From NCBI GenBank assembly GCA_036395115.1, contig DASWDU010000036.1, positions 1-49,663 of the forward strand: DNA of 49,663 nt. The letters are read 5' to 3'. Shown here piece after piece: positions 46,947 through 49,663 of the stretch (within the stretch, counting starts at the first letter, position 1; each line of letters begins with the position of its first letter). The notes below the pieces were generated by a model that was given only the letters and a program-made list of their open reading frames with translations, was not told the DNA's origin and ran no database searches. The DNA comes from Thermoplasmata archaeon (GTDB lineage: Archaea; Thermoplasmatota; Thermoplasmata; RBG-16-68-12). The translations under genes were made by a program, and so were the position numbers.

Positions 46947-47492
46947 TCAGTCGCGGCCCACGAGGACTTGCGTGACAAGCCCTTGGAAGATCTCCTCGAC
47001 GCCGCGACCGCTCCTCGCGCTCGCGTACGACCACGCCCATCCCCGCGCGCGGAAGAACGACTCGACCTCCGCGGACGTCATCGCGGCCTGGGGATGCAGG
47101 TCTTCCTTGTTCACGACGCCGTACGTCGGGATGTTGCCCGCCACGGAGCGGATCGAGGCCGCCCACGCGTCCAGCGCGTCGAGGGTGCCGCGCCGGGTGA
47201 CGTCGGCCACGGCGAGGATCCCCCGGGCCCCGTGGTAGTACGCCTCCTTGAGGAGTTCCCGCAAGGTCGGGGTCCCCATGATGTCCCAGATGATCACGTC
47301 GACGGGCACGTCGCCGGCGCCGGACGGGTGCCGGACCGCGACGCTCTTCTTCGTGACCTTCGTGCCGAGCGTGGCGACGTATCGGTCGTCGAACGCGTCC
47401 TGGACGAACCGTCGGATGAGGGAGGTCTTGCCGACGCCCGCCTCGCCGGCCATGCAGATCTTCACCTTCGCGAGGACGCCGGGCGCGCTCAT
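46947..47492 (-). CDS. Ras/Rab-like small GTPase
   Basis: A 181-residue P-loop GTPase with G1 GEAGVGKT (16-23), a switch I Thr near 43 in VATLGTKVTKK, G3 WDIMG (69-73), G4 NKED (128-131) and a G5-like YASARSG near 157. The residue after the G3 glycine is Thr, so the Gln that activates water in Ras is absent, as in several prokaryotic MglA/Arl-like GTPases. The C-terminus lacks a prenylation CaaX box. It is the last gene of a three-gene overlapping unit with a TPR protein and a membrane receptor, and ends next to the convergent glyA. The role is probably signalling or polarity at the membrane, by inference. Confidence 0.88.
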   Translation of the reverse strand: MSAPGVLAKVKICMAGEAGVGKTSLIRRFVQDAFDDRYVATLGTKVTKKSVAVRHPSGAGDVPVDVIIWDIMGTPTLRELLKEAYYHGARGILAVADVTRRGTLDALDAWAASIRSVAGNIPTYGVVNKEDLHPQAAMTSAEVESFFRARGWAWSYASARSGRGVEEIFQGLVTQVLVGRD

Positions 47493-47908
47493 CGCTCCGC
47501 CTCATCCGCCTTGCGCTGCGCCGACCGCTCGGCGTCGTCCTGGCCTTGCATCCGGTGCAGGGTCGCCTTGAGCCGCCACCCCCCCGGATACCTGGGGTCG
47601 ATCTTCAGGACGCGGTCCAGGATCGTGATTCCCTCCTCCACCTTGCCGTCGCGGACGCGGATCACCGCAAGGACGAACAGCGCGTCGACGTCGTCCGAGT
47701 CCTCCGAGAGGCGTCGCCGCACGAGCGCGGCCGTGTCCGGGTTCTTGAACTTCGCTTCCGGAAGCTCCTCGCGTCGCGCGCGCGGCGCCGACCCGTGCGG
47801 GATCGCCTTGGGACGCGAATCCGGTCTCGCCGATGCAACGGTCCTTGCGCGCCGTCGGCGGCGCGGTGGCTCGGGTTCCCGGACCTCCGACGTGTCGGGG
47901 TTACGCAC
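47489..47908 (-). CDS. Small TPR-like protein
   Basis: A 139-residue protein. The N-terminal 60 residues are rich in Arg, Pro and Ala and probably disordered. The C-terminal part has a TPR-like helix series (DSDDVDALFVLAVIRVRDGKVEEGITILDRVLKIDPRYPGGWRLKATLHRMQG). It overlaps the upstream receptor gene by eight bases and the downstream GTPase gene by four, so it is probably an adaptor made together with them. Confidence 0.75.
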   Translation of the reverse strand: MRNPDTSEVREPEPPRRRRRARTVASARPDSRPKAIPHGSAPRARREELPEAKFKNPDTAALVRRRLSEDSDDVDALFVLAVIRVRDGKVEEGITILDRVLKIDPRYPGGWRLKATLHRMQGQDDAERSAQRKADEAER

Positions 47909-49289
47909 CGTGCCACCCCCGGACCCGGCGGAAACCCCCGCGGAGGAACCGCTGGAGGATCGGATCGACGTGATCGAGGCCCGTCAAGCGCCCATCCCAG
48001 TCGACGAGGGCGGGCCCGTGCGCCCGCTCGAGGGCGCGCTCGGCCGCCTTCATCTGCGGGAACAGGTAGCGGGGGTTCCCCCTCGAAGTGAGCGCGGCCA
48101 AGATGACGTGCTCTCCGCGGAGCACCCCGGCCCGGCGGCCGCCGAACGACATCTCGTCGAGGGTCGCCTTCGTGTCGAACGAGTCCCGGACGAAGTCCTG
48201 GATCGCGACGAACATCGAGGCCACGAGGTCGTCGTCTTTCCGCAAGTCGGGGCCTCGGCTCATGTGTTGGATCAGGATCCCGCTCCGGTGCATCAGGAAG
48301 ACCTCGTCGATGACGATCCGCCGCTCGCCGAGGCCCGCGCTGAGCCCGACCGCGATGACGATCGCGAGGATCCCGAACGCCACGATCACGATGACGTTCG
48401 TGAAGTTCGGCTGGAACGGTGGCGGCGCCGCGACGGTCAGGATGCCCCGCGCGAACCTTGGTCCGATCGAACGGTTCGTGGCGTCCTCGTACACGAGAGA
48501 CGCGTTGAGCCAAACCTGGGTTCCGATCGGCGCACCCTCGCTGACGATCGCCGTGATGTTGACGCTGACCGAGCTCCGAGGAGTCAGGGTGTAGTTCCGG
48601 TAGACGAGCGGGGTGCTCGCGTTGACCCCGAGGTAGGGACCGGGCTCCACGGTCACGGTGACGTTGTGCGCTGTCAAACGGGTCTCGTTCTGGGTATCGT
48701 TCGCGTCCATGAAGTTCGTCACGTTGATCCCGAACTCCGCGAGCTCTCCCGGGTGGACGGACGTCGACGGTTTCGGTTCGATGCTCACGGCGAGCACGCC
48801 GATCACGATCCAGACGTCGACCCGCGAAGTGCGGGGGGTGGCCGAGCCGCCGCCAACCTCCAACGCGGCCGCAGAGGCGGTCCGGTACCGACCGGCCGTC
48901 GCGGTCGCCGCGACCGTGGCCGGGATCGACCACCCGTAGCTCCGGCCCACGCGGAGCGCCGTGCACTGCCATTCGACGAAGGTCCCGGACGCCGTCAAGA
49001 GGGAGCAGTCCGGCGGCATCCCGAGCGCCGCGGTGTCGATCGCGAAATCCGAATCGACCGTGAAGTTCACGCGCGCGAGCTGGAGTTGCCCGCCGCCCGT
49101 GACGTTCAGGTAGAGCGCGAACGCGATCGTCTCGTTCCGCTCCGCGGAGGACCGGTCGGCAGTGAGGGCGAGCGTGAAGCTCGAGGCCTGCGGCCGCACC
49201 GCAAGAGACGCGGCCGCGATGGGGACGACCGACGAAAGGCCGAAGAACATCAGGGATAACCATGCGAGCGCAGCGGGAGGGCGGCCCAC
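47901..49289 (-). CDS. Membrane receptor with Ig-like ectodomains and roadblock/longin-like cytosolic domain
   Basis: A 462-residue protein with a signal peptide (ALAWLSLMFFGLSSVVPIAAASLA). An ectodomain follows, made of two or three Ig-like beta-sandwich domains of the CARDB/NEW3 kind (for example HPGELAEFGINVTNFMDANDTQNET). A membrane helix lies near residues 295-320 (VIVIVAFGILAIVIAVGLSAGL). The cytosolic domain (about 325-455) starts IDEVFLMHRSGILIQHMSR and contains LVASMFVAIQDFVRDSF and LDEMSFGGRRAGVLRGEHVILAAL, a strand-helix-strand pattern resembling roadblock/longin domains that bind small GTPases; this fold call is tentative. The start is a GTG at 49289. The unit is completed by a TPR protein and a Ras-like GTPase. 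Confidence 0.7.
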   Translation of the reverse strand: MGRPPAALAWLSLMFFGLSSVVPIAAASLAVRPQASSFTLALTADRSSAERNETIAFALYLNVTGGGQLQLARVNFTVDSDFAIDTAALGMPPDCSLLTASGTFVEWQCTALRVGRSYGWSIPATVAATATAGRYRTASAAALEVGGGSATPRTSRVDVWIVIGVLAVSIEPKPSTSVHPGELAEFGINVTNFMDANDTQNETRLTAHNVTVTVEPGPYLGVNASTPLVYRNYTLTPRSSVSVNITAIVSEGAPIGTQVWLNASLVYEDATNRSIGPRFARGILTVAAPPPFQPNFTNVIVIVAFGILAIVIAVGLSAGLGERRIVIDEVFLMHRSGILIQHMSRGPDLRKDDDLVASMFVAIQDFVRDSFDTKATLDEMSFGGRRAGVLRGEHVILAALTSRGNPRYLFPQMKAAERALERAHGPALVDWDGRLTGLDHVDPILQRFLRGGFRRVRGWHGA

Positions 49290-49438: not shown

Positions 49439-49663
49439 TTGCTCGATGAGTTGCAGCTGAAGCGGGAGCGCGAGAACCAAGAAGCGGAACGGCACCGCCG
49501 GCGGCGCGACGAGCTGAACGATAAGACGCGGGAATGGGTCGAGAAGCGGGATGCGCTGAACGCCCAGGTGCGGGCCCTCGTCGACGAGGCGACCCAGCAT
49601 CGGATCCTGCGGGACGAGTTGAACGGCCAGGTCAAGGCGGCGAAGGAGGAGCGGGACAAGTTC
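49439..49663 (+). CDS. Coiled-coil protein, COG1340-like, N-terminal part (runs off the window)
   Basis: The frame is open from a TTG at 49439, preceded by a GAGGG ribosome-binding-like site (49429-49433), to the last base of the window. The 75 residues visible are a highly charged heptad-like helix (LDELQLKRERENQEAERHRR, then DELNDKTREWVEKRDALNAQV). The repeated DELN/DALN phrases fit the uncharacterised archaeal coiled-coil family COG1340. It is divergent from the receptor gene. The C-terminus is missing. Confidence 0.7.
   Translation, partial: MLDELQLKRERENQEAERHRRRRDELNDKTREWVEKRDALNAQVRALVDEATQHRILRDELNGQVKAAKEERDKF

Follow-up and report, generated by a model that had tools for sequence, protein, structure and literature searches.

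Can a single archaeal membrane protein connect the cell surface directly to a Ras-like GTPase? The question is raised by three overlapping genes at the end of a Thermoplasmata contig (C36, from a genome of 2.4 Mb that is 98% complete), the whole of which, 49,663 nucleotides in length, is the window analyzed here. A first-pass annotation had read these genes as encoding a receptor, a TPR adaptor and a GTPase, and the open reading frames, their minus-strand orientation and both overlaps are present as it had described. By ORF calling, the receptor gene (47901-49289, minus strand) starts with GTG and encodes 462 amino acids. The second gene (47489-47908, minus strand), also with a GTG start, yields a 139-residue protein with a Pfam TPR match, and the third (46947-47492, minus strand), starting with ATG, encodes a Ras-like GTPase of 181 residues that matches PF00071. 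Receptor and TPR genes share 8 bp (47901-47908), TPR and GTPase genes 4 bp (47489-47492). Against the nearest relative, G017, the receptor has a dN/dS of 0.28, the GTPase one of 0.22 and the core of the TPR protein one of 0.18, ratios that indicate evolution as proteins under purifying selection for all three genes. A serine hydroxymethyltransferase gene is convergent with them. Only the start of a further gene, for a conserved DUF7121 coiled-coil protein of 287 aa, falls inside the window (49439-49663, plus strand); throughout the genus it is divergent from the receptor or the TPR gene. Note that the sample consists of metagenome-assembled genomes, that genes were called with a simple codon model and that transmembrane (TM) segments were called from hydropathy.

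Architecture and topology of the receptor

The full-length AlphaFold model of the receptor, built from ten orthologs, consists of an N-terminal helix, two beta-sandwiches, for the most part with pLDDT values around or over 90, a single TM helix and a cytosolic domain. A putative signal peptide or N-terminal hydrophobic helix occupies residues 1-27 (49209..49289, minus strand); the model places a helix at residues 6-18 with low confidence, and a hydrophobic start is retained in the orthologs. The first sandwich spans residues 36-144 (48858..49184, minus strand; pLDDT about 90 or more) and the second, likewise modeled, residues 153-286 (48432..48833, minus strand). They are followed by the TM helix at approximately residues 299-320 (48330..48395, minus strand), recognized by hydropathy and modeled as a helix from 296 to 323, and then by the motif GERR. 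The Cys95/Cys109 pair in the first sandwich is invariant among orthologs, while the cytosolic part is free of cysteine, and 13 N-x-S/T sequons are found in the ectodomain (2.7 expected), with none in the cytosolic part. Model, hydropathy and the distribution of sequons and cysteines thus agree on a secreted Ig-like ectodomain with a single TM helix, the topology originally proposed.

Searches with the receptor sequence in PDB, Pfam and NCBIfam returned no useful match. For the sandwiches, Foldseek pointed to the alpha chains of integrins and to bacterial adhesins; as the alignments are long and multi-domain and the TM-scores low, this likeness is one at the level of the fold only. Between orthologs, identity is 56-92% in the cytosolic part and 28-83% in the ectodomain, and where the latter falls to 28-48% the former is still 56-81%, a pattern that we count as receptor-like selection.

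The cytosolic domain adopts a predicted longin-like fold

Residues 324-455 (47925..48320, minus strand) form a cytosolic domain for which AlphaFold, Foldseek and a profile match all point to a longin/roadblock-like fold. The AlphaFold run, which included 28 relatives, gave a pLDDT of 84.5, a pTM of 0.81 and the order b-b-a-b-b-b-a-a; the domain opens with a strand right after the TM helix and carries an extra helix at its C-terminal end. As set out in the accessible passages of PMC10933270, roadblock and longin domains are told apart by an N-terminal helix in the one case and an extra C-terminal helix in the other. The predicted arrangement, devoid of the N-terminal helix and with an additional C-terminal one, is longin-like.

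The 50 PDB matches listed by Foldseek are longin/roadblock domains, or else chains from complexes assembled around such domains, and the complexes listed include AP2/COP small chains, AP/COP, Mon1-Ccz1, Ragulator/LAMTOR, dynein light chain and MglB. Several of these structures were solved together with small GTPases (Mon1-Ccz1:Ypt7, MglA:MglB and Arf1:gamma-zeta-COP). TM-scores to single entries are modest, at 0.3-0.7, which we count against the receptor reading. An hhalign comparison of an 80-domain alignment with the genome's own Robl_LC7 proteins scored 37.9, at a probability of 85%, versus 19.0 for the best of 60 column-shuffled controls. In single-sequence Pfam searches the domain in the window did not match Robl_LC7 (PF03259), and one of 28 members did (E 2e-4). 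With its b-b-a-b-b-b-a core and profile relationship the domain belongs to the roadblock/longin superfamily; it does not qualify as Robl_LC7 proper, having neither a helix before strand 1 nor a Pfam match over the cut-off. The fold prediction, one of the two tests that the first-pass annotation had set, came out in favor of the roadblock/longin-like domain claimed initially.

The GTPase, the TPR protein and conservation of the locus

The GTPase matches PF00071 over its whole G domain with an E-value of 5.2e-27 (94.8 bits against a cut-off of 21.6), and its closest PDB entry is the Thorarchaeota Rab 7ezb. Motifs G1 to G5 are intact (the P-loop GEAGVGKTS, T41, DIMG at D70-G73, NKED and SAR), in columns that are invariant or nearly so. 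At the position of Ras Gln61 the protein has Thr74. The first-pass annotation had correctly pointed out this missing glutamine and had suggested a partner requirement for hydrolysis, a conclusion that does not generalize: 41 of 73 relatives have Gln at this position, 18 have Thr and 7 Glu. Threonine is typical of the ortholog group of the window, and glutamine is present in most or nearly all receptor-adjacent GTPases outside it, so that partner-dependent hydrolysis is no general feature and the missing glutamine is ruled out as a general sign of receptor-dependent hydrolysis. None of 74 GTPases has a cysteine within its last 8 residues, the feature expected for prenylation of eukaryotic Rabs. 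A lipid anchor of the eukaryotic type is therefore unlikely, and recruitment to the membrane would need to come from a partner.

One group of receptor-adjacent GTPases carries a C-terminal extension of about 100 aa with no Pfam match (L065:8542-9369, L026:8576-9394 and about 20 others); tested as a further roadblock/longin domain, it proved unrelated. Elsewhere in the genome under study (L039:7983-11932, contig C18), three tandem Ras-like GTPase genes are followed by a gene for a LonB-type membrane protease.

Seventeen genomes of the genus are informative, and 12 of them, that of the window included, have the order receptor-TPR-GTPase; G010 stops at a contig edge and G013 is without an ortholog. 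G001, G002, G005, G009 and G016 have kept the TPR and GTPase genes with the receptor gene absent. As these form one nested group on the GTPase tree, a single loss is probable, and the GTPase can evidently work without a receptor of the window type. The TPR-GTPase pair is the stable core in the genus, and its 4-bp ATGA overlap is kept in nearly all relatives. The 8-bp overlap is a different matter: in most relatives the receptor is separated from the start of the TPR gene by in-frame stops or a gap. Conservation in the TPR protein is confined to a core of about 89 aa (47489-47758), with the N-terminal 50 aa not conserved (dN/dS 0.72, 38% identity). Lacking conservation, the 8-bp overlap was no longer taken to argue for a unit. 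In the other groups inspected no TPR gene stands between receptor and GTPase, which adjoin directly. Of the proposed three-gene unit, the gene order thus holds in the genus, whereas the longer overlap does not, and the TPR component is limited to the genus locus.

A probable family of receptors linked to GTPases in Thermoplasmatota

In the genome under study, the cytosolic domain is encoded by at least 14 genes, and there are 16 Ras-like GTPases. For five of the 14, a GTPase gene is found no more than 1 kb away, versus 0.39 expected, and across 11 genomes the same holds for 28 of 96 domain genes, versus 2.9 expected, with 27 of the 28 pairs on the same strand. Orthologs across the 11 genomes are not independent of each other; the count within the single genome is. 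The neighborhood of receptor and GTPase in relatives, on which the initial proposal depended, is consequently far above chance. The remaining 68 of 96 domain genes, about 70%, are without a GTPase neighbor, and any action of their products on GTPases would be in trans, a point that counts against the receptor reading.

Domain and GTPase also go together at the level of the phylum. Among 69 genomes, 12 have both, one has the domain only, two have the GTPase only and 54 have neither (Fisher p 1.3e-10), and the copy numbers of both are correlated. The search for matched divergence turned up 48 domain-GTPase pairs. For 14 representative pairs, domain and GTPase distances correlate with r 0.64, not reached in any of 5000 Mantel permutations, a correlation that partly reflects shared ancestry. 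The receptor-adjacent GTPases are spread over about six clades of the GTPase tree. A collection scan with a three-row alignment over 84,980 species, reaching close relatives only, returned 89 relatives; the 80 that were kept are labeled Thermoplasmata, Thermoplasmatota, Euryarchaeota, Methanomassiliicoccales, DHVE2 or unnamed archaea. A Ras-like GTPase is present at 40 of these 80 loci, in one group directly upstream of a receptor of about 1430 aa. We also considered classical Robl_LC7 proteins as GTPase partners in the genome under study; none of its 8 matches lies within 1 kb of a GTPase, so that location lends this idea no support.

A TM segment precedes the domain by 60 residues or less in 84 of 124 ORFs, the usual linker being about 10 residues. 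The outer parts comprise FG-GAP propellers, CBM96, Ig domains of the Big_9/Big_5 type, PKD, NosD, Disaggr repeats and CARDB. Exchange of the outer part above an inner part that stays the same is characteristic of receptor families.

Other architectures occur as well. Two predicted polytopic proteins of the same genome (L038:6435-7571, plus strand, with about 6 TM helices, and L030:7458-8585, minus strand, with about 3) end in the longin-like domain and would be sensors of the same family without a large ectodomain. A soluble protein of this genome (L032:7759-8562, minus strand, contig C48) is a natural roadblock-longin tandem, with Robl_LC7 immediately preceding the longin-like domain. L137-L141, L143 and L145 contain soluble AAA_16 and TPR proteins of about 1000 aa (for example L139:5668-8583 and L141:41-3232, both plus strand), with the longin-like domain at residues ~110-240, where it seems to split the AAA_16 match into two stretches. 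The 2385-aa product of L028:6511-13668 (minus strand, contig C7 of the genome under study) combines two longin-like domains with CARDB, Ig-like parts and a DUF5915 end, and proteins with two such domains are present in many relatives. Given the soluble, tandem and AAA-TPR-inserted members, the domain is not solely a receptor tail.

Proposed mechanism and alternative explanations

The computational observations concern topology, fold prediction, linkage and co-occurrence of the genes, and their parallel divergence. We consider it probable that the unit in the window is a member of a Thermoplasmatota receptor family whose cytosolic longin/roadblock domain serves as a platform for Ras-like GTPases. 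The glycosylated Ig-like ectodomain would sense a surface ligand or a neighboring cell, and the single TM helix with its short linker might pass the change on to the longin domain, probably via dimer geometry. The latter would recruit the soluble, lipid-free GTPase to the membrane by physical binding and alter its nucleotide state by GEF or GAP action, possibly both, so that signaling would run inward to a downstream output. Translationally coupled to the GTPase, the TPR protein may be a genus-specific GTPase-binding accessory or an effector adaptor. Longin domains have roles besides GTPase regulation, and one subclade keeps the TPR-GTPase pair after loss of the receptor; we count both against this reading. 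According to the accessible part of PMC10933270, longin/roadblock domains are mainly GEFs and sometimes GAPs.

The main rival reverses the direction: a GTP-loaded GTPase upstream would bind the longin domain as its effector or scaffold and so control clustering, localization or turnover of surface adhesins. The ectodomains (FG-GAP, PKD, Ig, CBM96, CARDB) have the look of adhesive or carbohydrate-binding parts and resemble integrin alpha legs, the GTPase-TPR pair persists without a window-type receptor, and longin domains can be effectors of GTPases as well as their regulators, as in SRX/SRbeta. Parallels exist in the action of Rap1 on integrins and of SRbeta on the longin-like SRX of the SRP receptor. 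Nevertheless, we judge this inside-out scheme unlikely, as no other GEF or GAP candidate was seen beside most of the GTPases, whose neighbors are only partly annotated, and in the closest prokaryotic longin/roadblock-GTPase pair with a solved structure, MglB-MglA, the partner regulates the GTPase (PMC10933270 and PMC11016934, in the passages available).

More improbable still is a role of the domain as a generic dimerization or protein-interaction module that clusters with GTPase genes in evolution and does not interact with their products directly. The many domain genes that are not beside a GTPase are in line with it, as is the occurrence of the domain in soluble AAA-TPR proteins and in tandem; it is at odds with the ten-fold excess of adjacency, the agreement in strand, the involvement of several GTPase clades, the tight co-occurrence in the phylum, the correlated copy numbers and a fold known for GTPase platforms. 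A chance neighborhood or gene-calling artefact at the window locus, finally, is hardly credible: the species-specific 8-bp overlap and the unconstrained N-terminus of the TPR protein would fit it, but it is contradicted by the conserved gene order, the purifying selection on three genes and further paralogous receptor-GTPase pairs in the same genome.

Relation to known systems

The proposed receptor-GTPase system works like plexins, MglA/MglB and conservons, but belongs to none of them. Plexins are eukaryotic receptors that span the membrane once, with Ig-like domains outside and, in the cytosol, a GAP acting on Rap-type GTPases. They share with the receptors described here a small-GTPase regulatory domain on the inside; their GAP domain, however, is RasGAP-like, unrelated to longin and exclusively eukaryotic, and the archaeal receptors have no RasGAP domain. 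In the SRP receptor, the SRX longin domain of SRalpha works with the GTPase SRbeta, again a longin-fold domain and a Ras/Arf-type GTPase at a membrane, although there the anchor is on the GTPase, the function is protein targeting and an ectodomain is absent. MglA/MglB resembles the present case in that a Ras-like GTPase is encoded near a partner of roadblock/longin fold, and MglB is among the structural matches. MglB, however, forms soluble homodimers, carries the N-terminal helix of roadblock proteins and has neither ectodomain nor TM segment, whereas the Thermoplasmatota domain is longin-like, is C-terminal to a TM helix and has expanded into numerous receptors within a genome. Actinobacterial conservons (AGPS, CvnA-D) lead from a sensor via a roadblock-family protein to a small Ras-like GTPase and, as here, are present in multiple copies per genome (available passages of PMC13343842 and PMC4316618). 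Their components are four individual proteins, among them CvnC and a sensor that is a histidine kinase, while sensor and longin domain are here one polypeptide; neither the histidine kinase (CvnA) nor the CvnC family was detected in the receptors or the tested neighbors. The arrangement had been put forward as new. In functional terms it has precedents in plexins and conservons (PMC13343842); its construction does appear to be new.

Regulation of archaeal small GTPases is mostly discussed for Asgard archaea, which likewise have Rab-like GTPases and the same regulatory folds, as described in the accessible passages of PMC10933270. There, GTPase genes of MK-D1 are said generally not to be in operons with roadblock/longin genes, which makes partners hard to match, and that paper uses neither the word transmembrane nor the word receptor. 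In Thermoplasmatota, by contrast, the pairing is systematic and fused to receptors. The open-access passages of papers on archaeal Rab-like GTPases (PMC4915359, PMC4316618, PMC10933270 and PMC2651865) and of one on the soil Thermoplasmata order Ca. Angelarchaeales (PMC9038741) contain no such receptors. The genome under study is probably a member of that order, judging by a 1440-aa receptor with 82% identity to a genome of the EA_ series.

The recurring pairing with varied outer domains across one archaeal phylum suggests a receptor class that we have not found described so far. We give an even chance to the broader proposition that Thermoplasmatota possess a large class of single-protein TM receptors, with about 14-27 domain copies per genome at most, whose longin domain directly controls Ras-like GTPases: an archaeal form of receptor-to-small-GTPase signaling that would parallel bacterial two-component sensors and would either predate the eukaryotic arrangement or be independent of it. 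The genome organization of Thermoplasmatota directly names pairs of GTPase and partner and ties them to the cell surface. If these pairs work as proposed, they would illustrate how a single protein can carry a signal from the cell exterior to a Ras-like switch in prokaryotes, and they would offer biochemistry defined GTPase-partner pairs. They would also bear on whether the pairing of longin/roadblock domains with GTPases served signaling before it served membrane traffic.
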